Below are positions 5,635 to 24,692 of a DNA stretch of 34,216 nt, in pieces. The first letter of the stretch is position 1. Every line of letters starts with the position of its first letter. The translations under genes and the position numbers were made by a program. The notes beneath the pieces are model-generated. The model had not been told where the DNA came from. It made no database searches and saw only the letters and a program-made list of their open reading frames with translations. Source of the DNA: a virus; IMG/VR virus record IMGVR_UViG_3300020157_000009, positions 1 through 34,216 of that record. One strand, 5' to 3'.

Positions 5635-7557
5635 TTAAAATCCATCGTCATCCACGCCCCTGCCGCCATACCCCCAATCTTCTTCCATCTGCTCTTCCTC
5701 CACATTGTTTTTGCTGTGGATTAATTTGTTCTCCCAGTCGCTTATTTCTTGAATGTCCAAGGAAACTGTCTCTTCCTCAAAATTAAACTCTAATCCTGCC
5801 TTTCGTAGCATCTGAACTGCATAAGTAAAAGAGTCAGCCAAATCGGGTGACTTCTTTAAGCGATGCTTCATGTCGAGCTTCTTCTCAACCGCAACTTTCC
5901 TGCCCTTGTGGGTATAAAGACGACTGCAAAGTTCGTTTATCATTATCCCATGTTTATCCACATCAATGCCAACTAAACTTCTTGTTGACATAGCAGTATG
6001 AACAGCAAACCAATATTCGGTAACAAGCCTATCGTATGCTTCTTTACAGGTTCTTTGATCCAAGTTGCTAATCTTTCGATCCGTGGGCATCCCCATTGAG
6101 GAAATAGGGAATAAGAACATTGCCTCTGGATGGTATTTGCTCCACTCAATGATAATTGCCCTCATCATCTTTCCTCCATCACCAGAAATATCCAATCCAA
6201 AGTCCCTTGGATGGACTCCATATTCAATACAATCTTTAACCAACTGGATTGCTATGGATTCTTCAAAGACATCACCCACAGATGAGGAGTATTCTCTAGT
6301 TCCAAGGTAAAAACCTATACTCCTTCCTGTATCATTCTGTCCCATGCGACAAAAAGTAGCCGCACATCTATCTCCACCAGCGGTAAATGCCGGGTCAAAT
6401 CCACAAACCACCTTGGTTCTCCCACTCCAAATAGGTTCATAGTTTAAATTGCACCCTTGGATAAAGGCTTTTGAGAAGATTGTAAGCTCAACAGAGTTAT
6501 CGGGCCACCATCCATAGACATTTCTCCAATACTCAAGGGCATTTTTGTTCCCGTAGCATCGTTTTAGGGTATTTGCTTCTCCTTGGATGGTAAGAAAGCG
6601 ATCAAAGGGAGGTATTTCGGCATCAGGTAGCTTAAAGTTTGGGCTATCTTCTCCAGAAAGGTGTAATGCAACCCCTGTGCGAGTCCTCCACTTCTTTGTA
6701 TAGCGTGTAACTGACTCCCATTCCATAGGATCATCAGGCTGGCACAACTCTGTATGAGGGTTATTGGCAGTAGCAGCAGGATTTGCCATCCCCCCAAAAA
6801 TGAAATCAGGATTTGCTCCAAGGTTTACCCTGGTATCCAATGCGTAGAGATCCATTTCTGCCAACTCATCCAAAAACAACCTCATTCTGGCATTCTTGCG
6901 ACCTCTTGTATTCTCAACGGCTCGCTTTCCTTCTCCACCTTTAGGGAATGCCAATGCTTTTATGGCATTTGTATAGTCTCGTTCAGTATCTTTGGTATCA
7001 ATGCTCTCAAAAACAATCATTCTACGATATTCAACCAAATTTCCAATGGTTGCTCCCTTGTATTGGGCTTGGATGTTACGCATTGCAATCCTGTAAAGGG
7101 TGCAAACCTTACCCCATAATCGGTCTTCTGAAGCATCCAAAGAGGTAGAAGCTACATAGGTTGAGGTAACATTTGGGGCGCAAAGCCAATCAATTACAAT
7201 GCAAGCGGCAACAGAAAAGGTTTTTCCGCTGGATGCACACCCCGCAATACCCCAATCGTTTTCATTACAGAACAAATCTATAATATCCAAGGCATAGTTG
7301 TTGGGTATTCCTTGGGATTGGAGCAAAACATCATTGCCATAAATCAAATTAAAGCAATTGATCATGTGCTGTGTGGGATTCTTTAGGTCAGTATCTTCAA
7401 TCCTGATCCCTCGTTTGATCCTTTCACGCCTACCAAATTCACCACGGGTATAAACGTATGCCATTAATTCCCTAATGAATTGGGGGCTACTCTCAAAATA
7501 TGGAATGCCGTATGTAGTGTCTTTTGGTGTGTCCAGACAAAGACCGTTATAAATCAT
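5635..7557 (-). CDS. terL: Terminase large subunit
   Basis: This 640-aa protein is the packaging motor: an N-terminal ATPase drives DNA into the capsid and a C-terminal nuclease cuts it. Numbering from ATG 7557, Walker A is GCASSGKT (106-113) and Walker B is LFLDE (227-231). The RNase H-like nuclease shows the expected acidic residues: D388 in GFDPAF, D456 in GLDISGDGG, and D572/D575 in SPDLADSF. A TTG two codons upstream is open but less likely as start. It is leftward and divergent from the virion block, 52 bp away, and is not next to the small subunit. Confidence 0.95.
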   Translation of the reverse strand: MIYNGLCLDTPKDTTYGIPYFESSPQFIRELMAYVYTRGEFGRRERIKRGIRIEDTDLKNPTQHMINCFNLIYGNDVLLQSQGIPNNYALDIIDLFCNENDWGIAGCASSGKTFSVAACIVIDWLCAPNVTSTYVASTSLDASEDRLWGKVCTLYRIAMRNIQAQYKGATIGNLVEYRRMIVFESIDTKDTERDYTNAIKALAFPKGGEGKRAVENTRGRKNARMRLFLDELAEMDLYALDTRVNLGANPDFIFGGMANPAATANNPHTELCQPDDPMEWESVTRYTKKWRTRTGVALHLSGEDSPNFKLPDAEIPPFDRFLTIQGEANTLKRCYGNKNALEYWRNVYGWWPDNSVELTIFSKAFIQGCNLNYEPIWSGRTKVVCGFDPAFTAGGDRCAATFCRMGQNDTGRSIGFYLGTREYSSSVGDVFEESIAIQLVKDCIEYGVHPRDFGLDISGDGGKMMRAIIIEWSKYHPEAMFLFPISSMGMPTDRKISNLDQRTCKEAYDRLVTEYWFAVHTAMSTRSLVGIDVDKHGIMINELCSRLYTHKGRKVAVEKKLDMKHRLKKSPDLADSFTYAVQMLRKAGLEFNFEEETVSLDIQEISDWENKLIHSKNNVEEEQMEEDWGYGGRGVDDDGF

Positions 7558-7609
7558 GTGCAATAAGAATTGACAAATTTATAAAAAGAATGCAAATCAT
7601 TTACGCAAC

Positions 7610-8000: not shown

Positions 8001-10619
8001 ATGGCAAAAACAAAAAAGATTGTAAATCGTGAGGGAGTATCAAGTTGGGGTTTTAATACCATCAACTCCAATGGCGTAGCTCCTACTAGCCGAGTCCAAA
8101 CGGCAAATGATGCGTTTACAATTTGTTGGAACCTTCGCCTTGATAATGCTGGTCGTGAACGTAAGTGGGGAAGGATTTACAAATGTTATAAGGGTTTTCC
8201 CCCTACGGATTATAGCCAAGTAGCTTCTCGCCAGTTGTCAGGAATGAGCAATGTGCCATTCCGACAGATGAAATTCATTGTTGATAACCAAAAATCCTCA
8301 TTTGTGGATATGGTTATGGAGCGAAACACTGCTGCGAACATTGTTACCAAGATTGGAAATCCAACTGAAAAGAAACAATGGAGTGACTTAATCAGTATTG
8401 GATTTGATCGAATGCTTCGTTCTTGGACTTCCTACAATTACAATGTTGAGTTGGATGTTGAGGAGATGAGCCTTTATGGAAAAGGGTTCGAGATTGCGGA
8501 AGACCGAGATGGATGGCCTACAAAGAGCTTTCATAATTCTAATGTGTTAATTCCAGATAAAACGTATGCGGATCTCACGAACTTGGGGGAGATGTGCATT
8601 AAACGTAGCTACACACCCCTTGAGTTCTGGCTCAAGATTACCGGCGGGGAGGAAGATCCAGTAAAAGCACAGGCACACGCTACCGATATGGGTTGGAACT
8701 TCTGGGCTTGCGTGGATGCACTCCGAATGTTCACCACAAACTACCGCAATACTTATACAAATACGGAATGGTTGCGTGATGTAGCTTCTGGAAACCTTAA
8801 TCTTTCTCGCCTCTACACACTTCGCATTGAGTTGTATGAACTCTACATTATGGAGTTTAACGGATCTATTTCAAAGATGCTCTTGCTCCAAAACTACGGG
8901 GGACTTGTTCTTGGGTATAAAGAAAATGGACGTAAAGATTTAAGCGAAGAAGAGTATCGTGATCAGACGGGATTCCTTTATTACAAAAAAGATTGGGTAG
9001 AAAAGGATGGCGATGGTTGGGAAGATATCATTGCCCCAATGACTGACTCTACGGGTTCTGGTATTTGGCATGAGATCCAGGGTCTAGCTGAAGCTATCTT
9101 TATCCAATGCCGAGCTTACGACATCCACATGAATCGTGCTTTTGATTCAATGGATTGGTCAACTCGTTTGATGCTTAAAGGAGGTTCTGCTGAATCTACA
9201 AAGAAGTTAAAGCAAATGGAGTGGCAGCCCTGGATGATCCTTCCCCAAGATGTTGAGCCAGCCCAAGTTAATTTGAGCGTTCCTCTTGGTGAGTTGTTTG
9301 CAGGGATGCAGATGTATCAGCAAGATATGTATCGTGGTATTGGTGCATACAATATTGGAAATTCTCAAAGAGGTGGAAAGCAACGCACAAAGGGTGAGGC
9401 AGAACTTGATGCCGCTGAATCTGCCAAACTCCAAGGAACCCAGATTCGTCGATTCAATGACAACCAGACTCGTTGGCTAAAGATGCTTTATAAACGCATG
9501 AGTCGCACAACCAAGGGCGGGTATGGTTATAAACTCAAAGAGAAGTTTGTAGATTTCATGAATGAGAATGGCGTTCCAAAAGAAGCATGGAAGTGGGAGA
9601 ACATTGAGAACTTTGAATCCAATATGCTTTCTGGCTCTGGAAGCCCATCTTATAAGCTGATGGCGGCACAACAGACTGTTTCACTCACGGGAATGACCCC
9701 TATTAACGATGGTCAGGCTAATGCTATTGCTGATGCCATTGCCGCACTCAATGGTCGTCAAAATGTTAATCGTTACTTCCAGCATACCAAGGTTGAGATT
9801 CCTGATGAACAAGGAATCATCTCAATGGAGAACATTGGAATGACTGATCCTAAAGGAAATGCCGCAAACTTCCGGGTATATCCAGATCAGAACCATGTGG
9901 AACATTTCAAGGGCCACATCCAAGATGCTGCTGTATCAATGCAGGAAGCCCAACAGGCTCTCCAAAGTGCAGGGGTTAATCCACAAGCACCTATCCGTGG
10001 TCAAGCTGCTGGCGGGGTTTCTGAAGAGGCTATTGAGCTTATTAAAGACATCTATGCTTGTCTCATGCGATTCAAGGGGCCGCATCTTGTTGCCCACCTT
10101 GGATTCATCCAGAAAGATCCTTCCAAAAAGCAGATTGCACAACAATTTGGTCAGCAAATGCAACAGCTTCAGCGTGGTGTTGATGAGCTTGGTAGTCAGC
10201 TTGGACAGATTGAGCAAGCCAAACAGCAATCTCAAGGTGATCAGTCCCAGAATATGTCACCAGAGCAAATCAAACTTCACGCTCTGGTTGCCAAAGAGTC
10301 CATGCAGACTGACTTCCTCCAGAAGAAAGAGAACATTAAGCTGGCTGCAATGGCACAGAAAGCCAAGTTGCACGATGCAATGCACATGGAAAAAGCATCT
10401 ACCGACCTTGCAATCAAGAGGGCAAAGGCCGCTAATGACATCCAGATCCACCGAGCAAAGGCATCACAGAATGCTAAAGTCATGGAAGACCAACATGAGC
10501 AGGAGTTGGATCACAATGAACAACAGAACTCTCAAGACATGGCAGCTCAACAAGCCGCTATCGCACAGCAAGAAGCCATAACCACGCAAAACCCCAACAC
10601 AGGCAACGAAAATGGATGA
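8001..10619 (+). CDS. Portal protein
   Basis: The 872-aa product fits a podovirus-type portal, the dodecameric ring at the capsid vertex through which DNA passes. Support: size, position directly before scaffold and capsid genes, and the body sequence (for example YRGIGAYNIGNSQRGGKQRT followed by EAELDAAESAKL, a typical portal stem/wing region). Residues 640-872 are a long Gln/Lys-rich helical tail (QQFGQQMQQLQRGVDELGSQ, then KAKLHDAMHMEKA repeats), likely a coiled coil or barrel inside the capsid. A weak AGG precedes the start. Its stop overlaps the next start by 8 bp. A 240-codon frame inside the tail is a shadow. Confidence 0.8.
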   Translation: MAKTKKIVNREGVSSWGFNTINSNGVAPTSRVQTANDAFTICWNLRLDNAGRERKWGRIYKCYKGFPPTDYSQVASRQLSGMSNVPFRQMKFIVDNQKSSFVDMVMERNTAANIVTKIGNPTEKKQWSDLISIGFDRMLRSWTSYNYNVELDVEEMSLYGKGFEIAEDRDGWPTKSFHNSNVLIPDKTYADLTNLGEMCIKRSYTPLEFWLKITGGEEDPVKAQAHATDMGWNFWACVDALRMFTTNYRNTYTNTEWLRDVASGNLNLSRLYTLRIELYELYIMEFNGSISKMLLLQNYGGLVLGYKENGRKDLSEEEYRDQTGFLYYKKDWVEKDGDGWEDIIAPMTDSTGSGIWHEIQGLAEAIFIQCRAYDIHMNRAFDSMDWSTRLMLKGGSAESTKKLKQMEWQPWMILPQDVEPAQVNLSVPLGELFAGMQMYQQDMYRGIGAYNIGNSQRGGKQRTKGEAELDAAESAKLQGTQIRRFNDNQTRWLKMLYKRMSRTTKGGYGYKLKEKFVDFMNENGVPKEAWKWENIENFESNMLSGSGSPSYKLMAAQQTVSLTGMTPINDGQANAIADAIAALNGRQNVNRYFQHTKVEIPDEQGIISMENIGMTDPKGNAANFRVYPDQNHVEHFKGHIQDAAVSMQEAQQALQSAGVNPQAPIRGQAAGGVSEEAIELIKDIYACLMRFKGPHLVAHLGFIQKDPSKKQIAQQFGQQMQQLQRGVDELGSQLGQIEQAKQQSQGDQSQNMSPEQIKLHALVAKESMQTDFLQKKENIKLAAMAQKAKLHDAMHMEKASTDLAIKRAKAANDIQIHRAKASQNAKVMEDQHEQELDHNEQQNSQDMAAQQAAIAQQEAITTQNPNTGNENG

Positions 10620-12740: not shown

Positions 12741-14153
12741 ATGGCCGCACAAAATGGCGTAACATTCTCATCCTGTCAGGATGTGGATACCCTCTTTAGA
12801 GAGGCTCGTACATACTACAATCCATTCTTCATCAAGAAGATGGCGATTAACTCGATCTATTATGGTCGTCTTGAAACTGAAACTTGGCCTCTGAATACCC
12901 TTCCCACAATGAAGGCATTCCGTTTTGGTCGTGGATGGTATAACCCAAATCAGCCTTGGGAGCAAGTTCAATCAGGTCGTTGCATCCAGAACGCAGATGA
13001 CGTTCAGTTTGAGACGATTGCTCACCCCGGTACAGAATCCTATAGCTTCAGCCTTTTCACCAAGGCAATGCGAACCGATTGGTATCAGCTTACCGATTTC
13101 ATGTATCGTCTCTTCCCTCAAGAGGAGATGGATCATATCATGGCAACAAACGTCAACATCACGAAAAACGTGCATGAAGAGTTTGCTCGTTCTAACTGGA
13201 TCGGTGGTGCTGGTCACAAGTGGATTCCTATCTCCAATGGTCAGAGCCTTGTTTCTTGTGCCACTCCTGATGATCAGATGTTTATCGTTCAGCCCTTTGA
13301 GGGAACGAATGAAGGCAGCTTCAACATGGGCTATGTCTATGTTAAGATGGCAGCTTCCAGCCTTAACAACATCGGTCTTCTCTCACTTGATACCCTTGAT
13401 GATATCCTCATCAACCTTCAGCGTGAAGATGATGCCTATCGTCTCGACGTAAGCGAGGCCGCTGGTCGCCCTCTCCTTGAGATCATTGTTCCTGATGCCC
13501 GTGTCCTTCGTCAGCTCTGGCAGTATGCCAAGCAGTCTGGTGGATGGTGGGAGAGCGTTAGTGACTTTGATGACAAGCAGCTTCAGTACTCTTTGGGTAT
13601 TGATCGTGTCATCGGTAACTACGCTTTCTGTAACGACATCAATGGTGTTCGCTTAAACGTGGATTGGGTGTACAACGCTTCCCTTCCTACGTTCAACGTG
13701 AATGATCCTACGACATGGCCTCGTCTGGTGCGTGTGCTTCCTTACTACCCCGTCACGACGGAATTAGGTTGCAAATACATCCAGAATCCAGCCTTCCAGT
13801 ATGCTGATTTCGGTATCACGAATCCTTGGGTCAACAAGGCAATGATTAAGTGGATCAGCCCATCACAGAGTGGTATTGGAGAAGCCCAAGGCATGACCCA
13901 GAACTATGCTGGTGATTGGGAGTGGAAGAACCCAGATTGGGAGTGCAACATCAAGCGTGACCAAGGTTTCTTCTGGAACCAGTTCCGTATGGGTATGCAG
14001 TTCCAAGATCCTACTCTGATGCACTCAATCCTTCACAGGTTGAACAATGCACAGTTGGTGATCCCTGCGGCTTGCACACTCTCGCCGAACTATGCCCCTC
14101 AATACACCCCTGATTGCTACGCTTGCAACAGCACTGTTAGCCAGCCTATCTAA
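12741..14153 (+). CDS. Major capsid protein
   Basis: The 470-aa product follows the scaffold gene and has the size and even composition of a phage major capsid protein. The sequence is rich in aromatic residues (WPLNTLPTMKAFRFGRGWYN near residue 50; VYVKMAASSLNNIGLL near 200). Codons end in C more often than in the neighbours, consistent with high expression. The last 25 residues carry several cysteines (CTLSPNY, CYACNS). An HK97 fold is expected from context, not seen directly. The leader ending AAAATT-ATG has no Shine-Dalgarno sequence. Confidence 0.75.
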   Translation: MAAQNGVTFSSCQDVDTLFREARTYYNPFFIKKMAINSIYYGRLETETWPLNTLPTMKAFRFGRGWYNPNQPWEQVQSGRCIQNADDVQFETIAHPGTESYSFSLFTKAMRTDWYQLTDFMYRLFPQEEMDHIMATNVNITKNVHEEFARSNWIGGAGHKWIPISNGQSLVSCATPDDQMFIVQPFEGTNEGSFNMGYVYVKMAASSLNNIGLLSLDTLDDILINLQREDDAYRLDVSEAAGRPLLEIIVPDARVLRQLWQYAKQSGGWWESVSDFDDKQLQYSLGIDRVIGNYAFCNDINGVRLNVDWVYNASLPTFNVNDPTTWPRLVRVLPYYPVTTELGCKYIQNPAFQYADFGITNPWVNKAMIKWISPSQSGIGEAQGMTQNYAGDWEWKNPDWECNIKRDQGFFWNQFRMGMQFQDPTLMHSILHRLNNAQLVIPAACTLSPNYAPQYTPDCYACNSTVSQPI

Positions 14154-17338: not shown

Positions 17339-17668
17339 ATGTCAAACTTTGCTCACATAATTAATGGAATTGTTGATAATGTAATAATTGCTGACGCTAA
17401 CTTTATTTCTTCTCTTGATAACGCTAAAGAGTGGGTAGACGTAACAGGATTATCTGTTGGGGTTGGATACAATTACAACGGAGCCTTATTTTATGCTCCA
17501 CAGCCGTATATTTCTTGGACGCTAGACGAGAATCTTAAATGGATTCCTCCAATAGAAATGCCATTGGATAATCAAAAATATAATTGGGATGAAGACAATC
17601 AAAAATGGGTAGTTGTTCCACCAAAAGTAAAAATAAGTCGAAATCTTAATGCAACAAATTCCCAATGA
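17339..17668 (+). CDS. Tail-fibre-associated small protein (WxxxE-type)
   Basis: From ATG 17339 (2 bp after the fibre stop) this encodes 109 aa beginning SNFAHIINGIVDNVIIADAN. The pattern 'FAKV-NG-V--VIVA', a central GYNYNG, then PYISWTLDE and YNWDEDNQKWV, is common in small phage proteins encoded near fibre genes; their role is unknown, perhaps fibre chaperone or tip. An upstream in-frame start (17318) would overlap the fibre gene. Its stop overlaps the next start in ATGA. Confidence 0.65.
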   Translation: MSNFAHIINGIVDNVIIADANFISSLDNAKEWVDVTGLSVGVGYNYNGALFYAPQPYISWTLDENLKWIPPIEMPLDNQKYNWDEDNQKWVVVPPKVKISRNLNATNSQ

Positions 17669-17853
17669 ATCCTTCCTCATCACCTAGTCCAGACGCAACA
17701 ACAGCATCAACAAGTGCTTTAGTATCCCTTGTGACATTACTTGTATCATTTTTTAATAATTCGCACGTTTGGTTGCAGAATATTACTTTAATTGTTTCTT
17801 TTATTGCTGGTTGTGTGGCTATCTACGCAAGCATTAAAAAACTCTCTAAATGA
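17665..17853 (+). CDS. Two-helix membrane protein, holin candidate
   Basis: The 62-aa product has a polar Ser/Pro-rich start, hydrophobic segments at about 17-30 (SALVSLVTLLVSFF) and 37-57 (LQNITLIVSFIAGCVAIYA), and a basic end (KKLSK). Size and layout fit a class II holin, which forms the membrane holes that release or activate the endolysin. It overlaps both neighbours by ATGA and lies two genes upstream of the endolysin. Holins are too variable to assign by family here. Confidence 0.6.
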   Translation: MNPSSSPSPDATTASTSALVSLVTLLVSFFNNSHVWLQNITLIVSFIAGCVAIYASIKKLSK

Positions 17854-18332
17854 AATATCTGGTATTAGTAATGGCGTTTCTTTTGGTTGGATGTGCCAGC
17901 ATACCTAAATCAAATTATCTGGATTTATCTCCAGCGATTGCCAATACAAATAACGCTGTCAAGGAATTAGATGTAGCGTTGAAACAAAAGACTGTGGCGT
18001 TAAAGAACCAGGCCATCAAGGTTGCACAGAATGATATCAATCAGATTAGACAACAATTGCTTACAGAAGCTAATCTAGCCAAGAAACTTCAATCTCAAAT
18101 TGACTTCTTTATAAATTCCAACAAGGAAAAGGATAAGGAAATATCTAGCCTAAAACAAAGGATCTCTCATTTCAATAAACTCCTCTTCATCCTTTCTTCT
18201 ATCATTGGAATGCTTGTTACTTTTATGATTGGTAGGATTGCTATGGCGTTCTCACCTTACGGAATCTTCATTGGAGTTGGTGCTGGTCTTTCAGCATTCG
18301 GTGCTTCTTGGGCATTGCTATCTCATCTATGA
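17850..18332 (+). CDS. Unimolecular spanin (u-spanin) candidate
   Basis: The 160-aa product starts with a lipoprotein signal (KYLVLVMAFLLVGC, lipobox LVGC with C15). It continues with a long charged coiled coil (about 30-108) and ends with two hydrophobic segments (111-133 and 137-159). An N-terminal lipid anchor in the outer membrane and a C-terminal inner-membrane anchor on one chain define u-spanins such as T1 gp11, which fuse the two membranes at lysis. Known u-spanins have one C-terminal helix, whereas two are seen here. It overlaps the holin candidate and the next gene by ATGA. Confidence 0.7.
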   Translation: MKYLVLVMAFLLVGCASIPKSNYLDLSPAIANTNNAVKELDVALKQKTVALKNQAIKVAQNDINQIRQQLLTEANLAKKLQSQIDFFINSNKEKDKEISSLKQRISHFNKLLFILSSIIGMLVTFMIGRIAMAFSPYGIFIGVGAGLSAFGASWALLSHL

Positions 18333-18613
18333 ACTTCCTAGAGGGACTATTAAGCGAAACTAATGGTACTCCTTCTAGTTTAAGGATTTCATTCCTTGTG
18401 TGGGAGATTGTTCTACTAATCGCTTTTATCGTTGTGATTGGTTACACAATATTTGCTAATTACATTCATGATGATTTCAACCCATCTGCTTGCCTTACTT
18501 GGATAGCATCTATCTTTGCAGTAAATCGAGGATCAAAGATAATCCAAAAGCCATTTGAAAATAATCGTTATGAGGATGATTCATTCCCATCTCCAAGAGT
18601 TCGTGATCTATGA
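18329..18613 (+). CDS. Small membrane protein of the lysis cassette
   Basis: From ATG 18329, in ATGA overlap with the spanin stop, the product has 94 aa. It begins MNFLEGLLSETNGTPSSLRI, has a strong helix at about 20-44 (FLVWEIVLLIAFIVVIGYTI) and a second weaker one near 52-65 (ACLTWIASIFAV), then a charged tail. The SETNG-x-PSSLR start occurs in small phage membrane proteins near endolysins. It may be the holin, an antiholin or a partner of the two-helix protein. An in-frame start at 18308 lies deeper in the spanin gene. Confidence 0.55.
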   Translation: MNFLEGLLSETNGTPSSLRISFLVWEIVLLIAFIVVIGYTIFANYIHDDFNPSACLTWIASIFAVNRGSKIIQKPFENNRYEDDSFPSPRVRDL

Positions 18614-19167: not shown

Positions 19168-21240
19168 ATGAATTACACCAATAATCAGAATTGCAACTCA
19201 AACAACTATTGTGGTTGTGGACAGCAATATCCTGTTGTACCCGGATCTAATCCTAGTCTCCAGACATGGAACGGTCAGAGATTTGTTGTAGCTGATGGTT
19301 CTTATCAATTGCCGATCTATTTGCCAAACTTGCAACAGTACGATCCTACGCAAGTATCAAATGTGATTGGCATGAGTGCTACTGGTCAGTTAGTAAGATT
19401 TGCTGATGTTCAGTACGCTCCCAATAATGCATTGGTGACTGCTACAGGTTCTACAACCCCAAGGACACTGGCTAACCGTTTTGCTGATGTGGTTAATGTA
19501 AAGGATTTTGGTGCTGTAGGAGACGGGGTAACGGATGATACAGCAGCCATCCAAGCTGCATTAACATCTACTTATTCAAACAATGGTGGAAGGGGAATAA
19601 AACTTTTATTCTCTGCTGGAACATATTTAATAACTTCATCATTAACCACTGGATCAAATCAATTTCTTCAATTTGATCCTAGTGTAATAATTAATTTAGT
19701 TCCTTTATCAAATAATGAAACAACCTCGGCCTTTAACTCATCTAATCAAACAAATGTAGTGTTTGATGGAAATGGGGCAACAATTAATGGATACCGATCT
19801 GGAGCAAATCCTTCTATTGAAGGAAATGCAGCAGCATTTTTTGTTTATGGATCAGATAATGTAACTATTAGAAATTTTAATATTAACAATTTTTCTACTG
19901 ATGGAATTACAATTGCTGGAGATAATTCAACTTCTGGCCCATCTACAAATGTTTTAATTGAAGGGGTTGTTTGTAATAATAATCGCAGAAATGGATTATC
20001 AATTACTCATGCAAATGGAGTAACAATTTTTAATGGTAAATACATAAATAGCAATGGATCACCAAATGGCCCGTTTGCAGGAATTGATGTTGAGCCTAAT
20101 ATAAATAATTACGCTCAAAATATTAATATTATTGGAGTTTATACACAGGGAAATATAGGTGGTGGATTATTGTTTGTTCCCTCTGCACAATCAAATGTTT
20201 CTAATACAACATATTCTGTAACTGTAAATGGTGGAAAATCATTTCAAGATGGATCTGCTATTAATATTCCAGCCTTACGCTTTGCTGGTGGAACTTTCTC
20301 AAATCAAATAAATGGGTCTGTATCAGTTTCAAACTATACCATAGAAAATCCACAAGGAAGAGGCGTTGATCTAACGAATTGGGATGCAAATTTAGCCCCA
20401 CAAGTTATTTGCACAAATGTAAATGTATTAAATCCAGGCTCAAATGCTAGTGCATCTACAAATCAAGATTTATCTGGGTTTGTAATTGATGGCACAACCT
20501 CATCATTGGTAACAAATCTTGGTAATGCTAGATTTACAAATTGTTCCGTAATTGATTTAAGGGGAGCTTATGCCAAAATGATTAGCGGATTTTGGATTAA
20601 TACCATTTCTGGTAAAACAACTAAAAACATAAACATTGTTGATCCAAATACATTTGGTCAAATTGTTTATTCTGGAGTTGATGTTCTTCTAGAAAGTTGC
20701 CTTGTTACAAATGGTTCAAATAATGTAACTGTATTTTACACTAATGGTAAAAAGTATTCTTCTACTGCTACATTAACAAATTTTGGAATATTTGCGGGAA
20801 TTACATTTGAAGCAACAGAAATACCTTCTACTGGACAAAATTTATCACTCCCACTTGCTGCAAATTGCATTAATACTACATATAAAATTCAAACTGGATC
20901 AACAGGTGGAAATATAAGCATTATTCCAAGCGGGTCTGATAGCTTTGTTGGATTAGCTCCGTATGGTGGAAATATTATTTTGTCAAATGGAGGATATGTT
21001 GAACTATGTTCTCTTGGAGGAACTTCATGGCAAATTAAAAATATAACTTCTGAATATTTTCTTACTGGTTCAGTAACACCAGCAAGAATTATATGGTCAT
21101 CTGTTAATGCGCCAACTACAGGGCGTTGGAATGTTGGAGATATAGCTTTTAATAAAACTTCTACAGTAGGATCACCTAAAGGATGGATGTGTACCGTTGC
21201 TGGAACACCTGGAACTTGGGTAAGTATGGGAAACCTTTAA
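19168..21240 (+). CDS. Tailspike 1, pectate-lyase-type beta-helix
   Basis: The 690-aa product starts directly after the endolysin stop. Residues 1-18 are Asn/Cys-rich (NCNSNNYCGCG), and residues 42-77 form a short particle-binding region (ADGSYQLPIYLPNLQQ, then ATGQLVRF). At 106-131 is the pectate-lyase-3 signature VVNVKDFGAVGDGVTDDTAA. Residues 150-530 show short repeats of a right-handed beta-helix, and the end has TTGRWNVGDIAFNKTS and a Trp-rich finish. Such spikes bind and often cleave surface polysaccharide. It shares the anchor and signature with the next gene. Confidence 0.8.
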   Translation: MNYTNNQNCNSNNYCGCGQQYPVVPGSNPSLQTWNGQRFVVADGSYQLPIYLPNLQQYDPTQVSNVIGMSATGQLVRFADVQYAPNNALVTATGSTTPRTLANRFADVVNVKDFGAVGDGVTDDTAAIQAALTSTYSNNGGRGIKLLFSAGTYLITSSLTTGSNQFLQFDPSVIINLVPLSNNETTSAFNSSNQTNVVFDGNGATINGYRSGANPSIEGNAAAFFVYGSDNVTIRNFNINNFSTDGITIAGDNSTSGPSTNVLIEGVVCNNNRRNGLSITHANGVTIFNGKYINSNGSPNGPFAGIDVEPNINNYAQNINIIGVYTQGNIGGGLLFVPSAQSNVSNTTYSVTVNGGKSFQDGSAINIPALRFAGGTFSNQINGSVSVSNYTIENPQGRGVDLTNWDANLAPQVICTNVNVLNPGSNASASTNQDLSGFVIDGTTSSLVTNLGNARFTNCSVIDLRGAYAKMISGFWINTISGKTTKNINIVDPNTFGQIVYSGVDVLLESCLVTNGSNNVTVFYTNGKKYSSTATLTNFGIFAGITFEATEIPSTGQNLSLPLAANCINTTYKIQTGSTGGNISIIPSGSDSFVGLAPYGGNIILSNGGYVELCSLGGTSWQIKNITSEYFLTGSVTPARIIWSSVNAPTTGRWNVGDIAFNKTSTVGSPKGWMCTVAGTPGTWVSMGNL
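19480..19547 (+). repeat. 68-bp exact direct repeat, copy 1
   Basis: These 68 bases are identical to 21596-21663 in the next spike gene. They encode the start of the pectate-lyase signature (FADVVNVKDFGAVGDGVTDD). On the left, the two proteins remain identical for 20 more residues, but their codons differ at many silent positions, so the edge is sharp. Confidence 0.9.
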
Positions 21241-21253
21241 TATTTAATCTACT

Positions 21254-23089
21254 ATGCCCTGCTACAATACAGTTCCAATCAGCATTATCCCCCCCACAGG
21301 ACAAGGGGTTGGCCCTCTTGTCTGGCAGAATGGTAGCCAGATCAATAGGCTTAATATTCCTCTTAATCCTAGTTGGCTGATCTATGATGGAAGCAAAACT
21401 CGTTGGGGTGATGGGTCAGCACAGGCTCCTGTTTACTTGCCAAATCTTCAACAAGTTCAGCAGAACACCATTAACTATGCCGTAGGGTTAAATACATCTG
21501 GTCAGCTTGCTGCTTACGCTAACACTACAATTAATCCAAACAACGCCTTGGTAACGGCTACTGGAAGCACTACGCCTAGAACGCTTGCTAATCGGTTTGC
21601 TGATGTGGTTAATGTAAAGGATTTTGGTGCTGTAGGAGACGGGGTAACGGATGATACAGCAGCTATACAGGCTGCTATTAATTTTGCAACAGGAATAGTT
21701 AGTTTTCCCTCTGGAAATTATCTTGTAAGTAATTTAAGTATTACTAAAAACATTCAATTAATTGGACAAGGATCAGGAACTACAATAATTGTAAATACTA
21801 CAGGAAATTGTATAACAATTAATTTTACTCAAGATCAAAGCAATAATGTTGTAATATCAAACTTTAATTTTGTTGGAATTAATTCAAGTTTAATTATTGG
21901 ATCATTTATTTATATTCAACAAAATGTAAATGTTGTTATATCTCATTGCCATTTTTCTAATAGCTCTTGCACATATTGCATTAATCATCTTTATGGGTAC
22001 GGATTACTTGTAGATCAATGTGAGTTTTTAAATTTAACTGGAAATGGAATTTATTTGCAGGGAGTAGTTGATTCAAGTACAGCTTATAGTTTTGTAACAA
22101 GAATAAGAAATTCAGATTGGGCTAGATTAACTGGGTCGGCAATTATAATAAATAATATACAAGATTTGTTATTTGATAGTTGTGTTTTTGAAGAATGCAA
22201 ATTAAAAGCAATTTCTTTTTCTGGAACAAGTTTTGATTTAGCAATCAGTTTTATTAATTGTTGGTGGGAAGCAAATTATGCTGATGGAATTAACGTTTCT
22301 TCTGGAACATCAACAAGCATTACAATTATAAATCCTGTATTTAATAATAATAGTCCAAGTGGAAATCCTTATTTAACAATTAACAATCAAACAAGATTAA
22401 ATATAATTGGAACGCAAGGAGGTGGTGGTGGAAACCCTTTAACTATTATTGGATCTGGATCTAGTAGTGTTAATATTTTGGGTGATGAAAACTATGTTCA
22501 ATCTGGAACATATTCATGGAATAGTTTTAATGCCAATGGTTTAAATATAAATACAGGAGCATATAATAATAATATACATACTGATCCTTCCAATGGAATC
22601 CTTGAACTTGATTCCACTGGAAACGCAGAATTTCAAATTACCGCACCATCTGGAGGAACACTTACTTCTTCATTAAATCTTTTATGTCGTGGAACAAGTC
22701 AAGCTGCAATGATATTGCGCCCGACAACTGGCTATCTTCAAGTTTGGAATGGAAGCCCTTCTTATGGAGTAAACTTAACTACTAATGCAACCTCTTGGGC
22801 TGCTGTTTCTGATGAAAGATTTAAAGAAAATCTTCAACCAATTCAAAATGCTGTCATTAAAGTAAATTCACTTCGCTCTGTAACAGGTACATACATTTGC
22901 GATAATGAAAAAACAAATCGTTCATTTTTAATAGCGCAAGATGTTCAAAGTGTATTTCCAGAAGCAATTGATGCAAATAATCCAAATGAATTACTTTTAA
23001 GATATACGGATATAATTCCTCTTCTTGTGGCAGCAATTAAAGAACAATCAAAGCAAATAGAATTGTTGCAATCTAAAATAACCTCTTAA
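21254..23089 (+). CDS. Tailspike 2, pectate-lyase-type with S74 C-terminal chaperone
   Basis: The 611-aa product starts MPCYNT, has an anchor region (WGDGSAQAPVYLPNLQQ at 51-67, SGQL at 82-85) and the same pectate-lyase signature as spike 1 (116-141). A beta-helix follows (about 150-460). The last 95 residues are a peptidase S74 intramolecular chaperone: SDERFK gives the Ser-Lys dyad S519/K524, followed by FLIAQDVQSVFPEAI and LLLRYTDIIPLLVAAIKEQS with the terminal coiled coil. These domains guide trimer folding and then cleave themselves off. It is separated by 13 bp from spike 1. Confidence 0.85.
   Translation: MPCYNTVPISIIPPTGQGVGPLVWQNGSQINRLNIPLNPSWLIYDGSKTRWGDGSAQAPVYLPNLQQVQQNTINYAVGLNTSGQLAAYANTTINPNNALVTATGSTTPRTLANRFADVVNVKDFGAVGDGVTDDTAAIQAAINFATGIVSFPSGNYLVSNLSITKNIQLIGQGSGTTIIVNTTGNCITINFTQDQSNNVVISNFNFVGINSSLIIGSFIYIQQNVNVVISHCHFSNSSCTYCINHLYGYGLLVDQCEFLNLTGNGIYLQGVVDSSTAYSFVTRIRNSDWARLTGSAIIINNIQDLLFDSCVFEECKLKAISFSGTSFDLAISFINCWWEANYADGINVSSGTSTSITIINPVFNNNSPSGNPYLTINNQTRLNIIGTQGGGGGNPLTIIGSGSSSVNILGDENYVQSGTYSWNSFNANGLNINTGAYNNNIHTDPSNGILELDSTGNAEFQITAPSGGTLTSSLNLLCRGTSQAAMILRPTTGYLQVWNGSPSYGVNLTTNATSWAAVSDERFKENLQPIQNAVIKVNSLRSVTGTYICDNEKTNRSFLIAQDVQSVFPEAIDANNPNELLLRYTDIIPLLVAAIKEQSKQIELLQSKITS
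21596..21663 (+). repeat. 68-bp exact direct repeat, copy 2
   Basis: Identical to 19480-19547. The base before (G versus T) and the base after (T versus C) differ, and similarity at silent sites falls off at once on the left side. A short tract of gene conversion or recombination between the two spike genes is the simplest reading. Confidence 0.9.
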
Positions 23090-24485: not shown

Positions 24486-24692
24486 ATGGCACAGGATGGA
24501 AAGTGCGGTATTTATGGATTCCGTAATTCCTTAAATGGAAAATGGTATATTGGTCAAAGCATTAATATTAAAGAAAGAATGCAAAGCGAAGAATATAAAA
24601 AACAACGATCTTTGGCTTCCAAAAAACTTTGGCAAAATGTAAAATCTTCTGGATTTACTAATCTTAAATTATATAAAGATTCAATTATATGA
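24486..24692 (+). CDS. Truncated GIY-YIG endonuclease remnant with NUMOD3-like tail
   Basis: The 68-aa product begins with a clear GIY-YIG half-domain: CGIYGFRNSLNGKWYIGQS (GIY at 8-10, YIG at 21-23) and a conserved Arg (R31). The rest of the nuclease domain, including the catalytic Glu usually some 50 residues later, is missing. Instead residues 34-50 (SEEYKKQRSLASKKLWQ) resemble a NUMOD3 DNA-binding repeat, normally placed after the nuclease in homing enzymes. An internal deletion of a homing endonuclease explains this. It overlaps the nozzle gene by ATGA, so it is transcribed, but nuclease activity is unlikely. Confidence 0.7.
   Translation: MAQDGKCGIYGFRNSLNGKWYIGQSINIKERMQSEEYKKQRSLASKKLWQNVKSSGFTNLKLYKDSII

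Follow-up and report, generated by a model that had tools for sequence, protein, structure and literature searches.

A candidate unimolecular spanin with a predicted hairpin anchor shares its lysis-cassette slot with single-pass and two-gene forms in related phages

The lysis cassette and the gene for P0001

The window analysed here is the whole stretch of 34,216 nucleotides of a viral IMG/VR record (34.2 kb). Its final ORF runs off the end, so it represents a partial genome. Four genes follow one another with overlaps between neighbours: a 62-aa holin-like gene with two transmembrane (TM) segments, the gene for P0001, a 94-aa holin-like gene and a GH108 endolysin gene. P0001 is the 160-aa product of a stop-free ORF at 17850-18332 (+). 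The features are as follows.

17665..17853 (+): 62-aa two-TM holin-like gene, left flank; ATGA overlap; hydropathy from the identical L005/L006 copies
17850..18332 (+): P0001, hairpin-anchored u-spanin candidate; 160 aa; dN/dS 0.06-0.15
17850..17894 (+): lipoprotein signal peptide with lipobox LVGC; Cys15 codon at 17892-17894
17895..17927 (+): linker, residues 16-26; opens the K20..Y23...S27P28A29 motif common to form B
17928..18176 (+): periplasmic helix or coiled-coil region, residues 27-109; AlphaFold2 (low confidence) and heptad test
18177..18242 (+): predicted TM segment 1, residues 110-131; hydropathy, Hessa-type scale and AlphaFold2
18243..18260 (+): hairpin loop, residues 132-137, presumably on the cytoplasmic side; 6/6 identical in G003 and G005
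18261..18329 (+): predicted TM segment 2, residues 138-160; Gly/Ala/Ser rich; 20/23 identical to G005
18329..18613 (+): 94-aa holin-like membrane gene, right flank; ATGA overlap with the P0001 gene
18610..19167 (+): GH108 / PG_binding_3 endolysin; ATGA overlap with the 94-aa gene

Comparison of P0001 with two relatives gave a dN/dS of 0.059 for G003 (92.5% identical) and of 0.15 for G005 (70.6% identical, dS 1.3); the gene is under purifying selection. An earlier sequence-only reading of the window had assigned an outer-membrane lipobox to this protein, and the lipobox is present in the 160-aa ORF as L-V-G-C15 (residues 12-15), followed by Ala at residue 16, in agreement with the consensus given in the available text of Kongari et al. 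(PMC6139136). Cys15 is the only cysteine in P0001, and a periplasmic cysteine is absent from 58 of the 58 u-spanins in the same text (PMC6139136). The lipobox alone is not convincing, since Markov simulations of the window also produced a lipoprotein-like ORF in 5 of 20 runs (mean 0.25). A six-frame scan of ORFs of at least 40 aa found P0001 to be the only lipoprotein-like ORF in the 34.2-kb window. The sequence-only reading had held that separate inner and outer spanin genes would speak against a one-piece spanin; the partial record contains no further lipoprotein-like ORF and, because it is a fragment, further spanin genes could sit outside it. Type II-like ORFs of at least 70 aa numbered 11 in the window, 7 overlapped by longer ORFs and 4 free, and the only free one inside the lysis operon was the 94-aa neighbour.

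Predicted topology and structure of P0001

To locate membrane segments we used a 19-residue hydropathy window, in which the only segments after Cys15 were 112-130 (2.10) and 139-157 (1.75). On a Hessa-type scale the same two segments scored 0.02 and 1.58; the one TMD of the u-spanin candidate from SIO1 scored 5.46. The second segment is the weaker of the two, though plausible as a TM segment. AlphaFold2 (4 sequences, mean pLDDT 63, pTM 0.29, low confidence) predicted helices at 4-14, 27-131 and 138-159. Hydropathy and predicted helices agree with the two C-terminal hydrophobic segments (111-133 and 137-159) that had been read from the sequence alone. The helix 27-131 ends as TM segment 1 and is preceded, within the same helix, by 83 residues (27-109). 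The coiled coil of about 80 residues proposed earlier therefore stands as a predicted helix of that length, but not as a heptad pattern shared with relatives: the pattern was equalled by 9 of 2000 shuffles of the window protein and by 258 of 2000 shuffles of the 71%-identical relative G005, for which reason 'long helix' is the safer wording. The model is all-helical, unlike the beta-rich T1 gp11. Positive charges also occur on the presumed periplasmic flank of TM1 (net +1 in the last 15 residues).

Conservation between the window and G005 is higher in the loop plus TM2 than in the long helix (26/29 versus 56/83 identical residues; Fisher p 0.027, one pair only), a difference that loses significance once TM1 is added (p 0.24). 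As a guess from this conservation, the hairpin may have a role beyond that of a tether, such as packing, oligomer formation or holin contact. A Foldseek search against PDB and BFVD returned nothing at E <= 0.001, and no solved structure in it resembled P0001.

Three forms of the spanin slot in related records

With the endolysin, the 94-aa protein and the spanin forms as queries, database searches returned 17 related records, or 18 together with the window. Homologues with the same ends as P0001, a search the sequence-only reading had proposed, were found: one chain with a lipobox, a helix and two TM segments (form A) occurs in 5 of the 18 records (the window, G001, G002, G003 and G005). G001 equals G002 across the cassette, which leaves 4 distinct form A versions, and the window copy is 99% identical to both. 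One chain with a lipobox, a helix and a single TM segment (form B) was found in 3/18 (G008, G011 and G012, the last being a record that stops shortly after the start of the right-flank gene). Two genes occupy the slot (form C) in a further 6/18 (G007, G009, G010, L066, L067 and L068); L066, L067 and L068 are identical over 2400 bases of the cassette, leaving 4 distinct form C versions. An unrelated cassette was present in three records (G004, L015 and G006), and in one (L014) the slot was cut off. The layout given by the sequence-only reading is supported, as is a place in the lysis cassette; that reading had missed that relatives carry a one-TM chain or two genes in the same slot.

Forms A, B and C each sit between the same two flanking genes. 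The left-flank protein shares 39 of 62 residues between the window and G007 (form C) and 38 of 62 between the window and G008 (form B), and the right-flank gene aligns end to end among the three. Conservation of the right flank and of the endolysin is partly by construction, because both served as search queries; the left flank did not. DNA similarity between the window and G007 covers the left-flank gene (17716-17840), is interrupted over the spanin slot and resumes at 18326; it resumes at 18326 in G009 and at 18329 in G010. Because similarity is lost at one border of the slot and regained at the other, we conclude that the slot is exchanged as a whole. One slot with one-TM, two-TM and split forms is a natural split/fused series. 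A looser scan of ten related records (G003-G012) found exactly one lipoprotein inside every one of the 8 cassettes of form A, B or C, with stray hits beyond the cassette in G007 (2) and G010 (1); it found zero lipoprotein-like ORFs in G004 (51.5 kb) and G006 (15.7 kb), whose cassettes are unrelated.

Two of the records with unrelated cassettes, G004 (L007 5001-5998) and G006 (L010 4999-5997), have endolysins that are 95% and 84% identical, and the genes directly upstream are unrelated. Their DNA similarity to the window begins exactly at the endolysin ATG (18610). They are possibly spanin-less members or partial records.

The two-gene form

Form C consists of a gene for a 52-54 aa lipoprotein followed by a gene for a 144-145 aa protein with a signal peptide, a helix and C-terminal hydrophobic segments. 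The two-component layout, in which the lipoprotein and the inner-membrane protein have separate genes, is matched by form C in gene layout only; it is not that of the window, which has a single chain. By eye, the start of the second protein resembles a cleavable signal peptide, with an A-E junction at 23-24 in G009 and G010. AlphaFold2 (3 sequences, pLDDT 81, pTM 0.47) predicted helices at 2-20, 27-105 and 113-141, a model that has the plan of form A minus the lipidated part. The hydropathy of its second TM segment varies: the segment is clear-cut in G007 (1.66) and borderline in G009 (1.40), and in G010 it falls below the threshold. If cleaved, the second protein would be a type I-like inner subunit.

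The forms resemble lambda Rz-Rz1 in combining a lipoprotein with a helical periplasmic part, and form C is likewise encoded by two genes. In lambda Rz the membrane anchor is an N-terminal TMD, and the C-terminus contacts Rz1, whereas the second form C protein appears to have the reverse polarity, starting with what resembles a cleavable signal peptide and carrying its TM segments at the C-terminal end. A type I-like inner subunit was named as possible, and not searched for, in the available text of Kongari et al. (PMC6139136). Split spanin-like pairs were seen at L011 4246-4838, L013 5104-5702 and L036 2406-3004; their second gene resembles a type I inner subunit, with a signal peptide, a helix and hydrophobic segments at the C-terminal end.

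Tests of homology among the forms

To examine if the three forms are homologous, we compared their profiles and single sequences with shuffled controls. Forms A and B with the signal peptide included gave a profile score of 48.8 in hhalign, which was reached by 0 of 100 shuffles, and the best form B protein in an HMM search with the signal peptide included had an E of 3e-6. A K..Y...SPA motif after the Cys is common to both, and the score of A16-60 against B17-60 was reached by 1/100 shuffles. For the mature parts alone, 5/100 shuffles were as good (HMM E 0.1-1.2), and A 40-160 against B 40-135 was at chance level (35/100). Pairwise, 0-7 of 1000 shuffles were as good for G005 and form B, and 71-107 of 1000 for the window and form B. 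The N-termini of forms A and B are thus related by sequence comparison, significantly so only with the signal peptide included.

For the mature parts of forms A and C, 0 of 100 block-shuffled controls were as good in hhalign, and with smaller shuffle blocks the score of A 40-160 against C 25-145 was reached by 1/100. The segments alone do not stand out (helix 7/100, hairpin 10/100), and the pairwise alignments were not significant, with 98-495 of 1000 shuffles as good. In an HMM search of 2528 ORFs a form A protein ranked 5th, with an E of 0.76. Collectively, these comparisons are no more than suggestive of homology between A and C. Trees of the endolysin and of the right-flank protein had support too weak to order the forms. 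Fusion or fission of the slot genes is a hypothesis based on their synteny and anatomy rather than on proven homology.

Comparison with known spanins

Database searches placed P0001 outside known families. It had no Pfam match above the cut-off. A PHROG match to 'Rz-like spanin' (phrog_812, E 2.9e-5) was gone once the signal peptide was removed and was rejected as proof of family; because the PHROG spanin matches depend on the signal peptide, they lend no independent support. In tblastn against 50,697 phage records, forms A, B and C gave chance-level hits only and no credible match, and P0001 had no match in the T1 gp11 sequence family in the same records. Pattern matches were found in GTDB genome contigs, none of them confirmed as a relative.

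The sequence-only reading knew of no described u-spanin with this layout, and none with two C-terminal TMDs was found in the accessible text of the literature searched, which was mostly open papers. By the same method, the known u-spanins recovered (T1 gp11, phi12:1 gp64, 11b gp49 and SIO1 gp22) each have one segment after the Cys (4/4), a count that covers four of the 13 known u-spanin families; RAP44, FCL-2, 9A, CHOED, VpV262, CW02, PB1 and ICP2 are among the phages outside it. In phi13:2 and phi10:1 neither the scan nor inspection by eye found a clear-lipobox u-spanin adjoining the endolysin, and both were excluded from the count of four. The proteins of Cellulophaga phi12:1 (gp64), Flavobacterium 11b (gp49) and SIO1 (gp22), which we take to be u-spanins from the phage names in Table 5 of Kongari et al., share the lipobox and C-terminal anchor with P0001 but differ from it in having a single segment after the Cys (3/3) and no sequence match.

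T1 gp11, as described in the available text of Kongari et al. 2018 (PMC6139136), is like P0001 in its N-terminal lipobox, C-terminal anchor, single lysis-cassette gene and lack of a periplasmic cysteine. It has one TMD with a charged tail and is beta-rich by description, whereas P0001 has two predicted TM segments and an all-helical model; T1 gp11 goes with a pinholin and SAR endolysin, P0001 with a soluble-looking GH108 endolysin. A paper on KP34-like phages places 'two transmembrane domains' at distal parts of the protein (PMC4411677), which, from the part of the text available, we have taken as a signal and a single TMD. The i-spanin of Caulobacter phiCbK (gp105/gp106 pair; PMC3556154, available text) resembles P0001 in having TMDs beyond a simple tether; these extra TMDs are N-terminal and in a two-component i-spanin, whereas those of P0001 are C-terminal and in a one-piece protein. 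According to the same text, the extra i-spanin TMDs are unneeded for tethering and perhaps holin-linked (PMC3556154).

P0001 as a probable hairpin-anchored unimolecular spanin

P0001 has a lipoylation signal, a predicted C-terminal membrane anchor (two TMDs rather than one), a place in a lysis cassette and no periplasmic cysteine, as u-spanins do. The same slot holds form B, which has the classical u-spanin layout, and form C, whose layout is two-component; this supports a spanin reading of P0001. Points against such a reading are the all-helical rather than beta-rich model, the weak hydrophobicity of TM2, the positive charges on the presumed periplasmic flank of TM1, the absence of a resembling structure in the Foldseek search and the fragmentary record. 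We consider it likely that P0001 is a unimolecular spanin anchored in the inner membrane by a hairpin, a new layout outside the known u-spanin families.

The reading closest to this one accepts the lipobox and denies the hairpin: TM2 would lie on or in the membrane surface, making P0001 a single-TMD u-spanin of the classical kind that ends in a hydrophobic tail. TM2 is indeed marginal (1.58 on the Hessa-type scale) and form B ends shortly after its single TM segment. Yet TM2 is predicted as a separate helix (22 residues in A, 29 in C), and it is part of the stretch that is better conserved than the long helix (26/29 versus 56/83, Fisher p 0.027, one pair); we regard a surface-lying TM2 as unlikely. 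Alternatively, P0001 could be an o-spanin-like outer-membrane lipoprotein with a membrane-seeking C-terminus and a separate partner, for instance the 94-aa neighbour (18329-18613). In that neighbour one strong hydrophobic segment lies at the N-terminus; the neighbour adjoins the slot in forms A, B and C, and form C does split the function over two genes. The neighbour also lies beside the complete two-gene form C, however, and is then not a missing half; it is only 94 aa long with no long helix region seen by eye, and P0001 carries an inner-membrane anchor of its own. A separate partner is accordingly very unlikely in our view.

Similarly low odds attach to P0001 being a holin or antiholin whose periplasmic domain is lipidated, its TM pair forming a pore or a holin-binding hairpin. 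The two TM segments, the Gly/Ala-rich second helix and the holin-like neighbours fit this idea, and work on P2 and phiCbK hints at cross-talk between spanins and holins (PMC3556154, available text). Against it, two other small membrane proteins of the operon already fit holin and antiholin, and form B lacks TM2 in the same slot but has the lipobox and helix. Class II holins have two TMDs, N-in/C-in, and no lipobox, and P0001 has a lipobox and a long helix before its TM segments. A superinfection-exclusion or other surface lipoprotein unrelated to lysis (Cor-like) is suggested by a weak match to the Cor family (phrog_1119, E 0.017), but that match covers residues 1-20 only, the signal peptide, and four-base overlaps tie the gene to holin-like genes in a lysis operon. 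Two C-terminal inner-membrane segments are not a known feature of Cor proteins, and we find a Cor-like function scarcely credible.

We infer lipidation, topology, bridging and fusion for the hairpin-anchored spanin by analogy with the published spanin model (PMC6139136, available text). Cleavage of the P0001 N-terminus at the lipobox would be followed by lipidation of Cys15 and transport to the outer membrane. Residues 27-109 would form a periplasm-spanning helix running straight into TM1. With the 11-residue linker, these 83 helical residues would measure about 160 angstroms by our arithmetic from the rises per residue, which is of the order of the periplasm. TM1, loop and TM2 would make a hairpin in the inner membrane and return the C-terminus to the periplasm. 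The peptidoglycan mesh would hold P0001 in place at first; once the holin has opened the inner membrane and the GH108 endolysin has removed the wall, P0001 molecules would cluster, their helices collapse and the inner and outer membranes fuse.

The single-pass and two-gene versions of the slot in relatives suggest a possible route to a one-piece spanin. Paired TMDs of atlastins drive fusion and are sensitive to loop length, and the available text of the review that cites this calls the u-spanin TMD a mere anchor (PMC7830690). A tentative scheme, which we hold to be possible but doubtful, is that form C is a two-component spanin with a reversed-polarity inner subunit (cleaved signal peptide, helix and C-terminal TM hairpin), the C-terminus of the lipoprotein meeting the N-terminus of the helix; that read-through without the second signal peptide would yield form A; that loss of TM2 would yield a form B-like classical u-spanin; and that the hairpin would actively bend the bilayer, as described for atlastins. 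Within one phage group, this position in the operon is taken by a one-TM chain, by a hairpin chain or by a split pair whose inner subunit is type I-like. The series makes two questions testable: whether fusion of a split pair can give rise to a u-spanin, and whether a spanin's inner-membrane segment serves solely as a tether.

Other features of the window

The large ORFs at 8001-10619 and 12741-14153 had no convincing PHROG family match, and that at 12741-14153 had no tblastn match in the phage collection. The large terminase (5635-7563) is encoded on the minus strand, in contrast to the small terminase (474-1031) and the virion genes from 7610 onwards, which are on the plus strand. A 68-aa ORF at 24486-24692, between tail-like genes, resembles by eye the start of a GIY-YIG nuclease. 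Two neighbouring fibre-like ORFs (19168-21240 and 21254-23089) have in common, close to their N-termini, an almost identical stretch of about 45 residues (from NNALVTATGSTTPRTLANRFADVVNVKDFGAVGDGVTDDTAAIQAA), as if duplicated.
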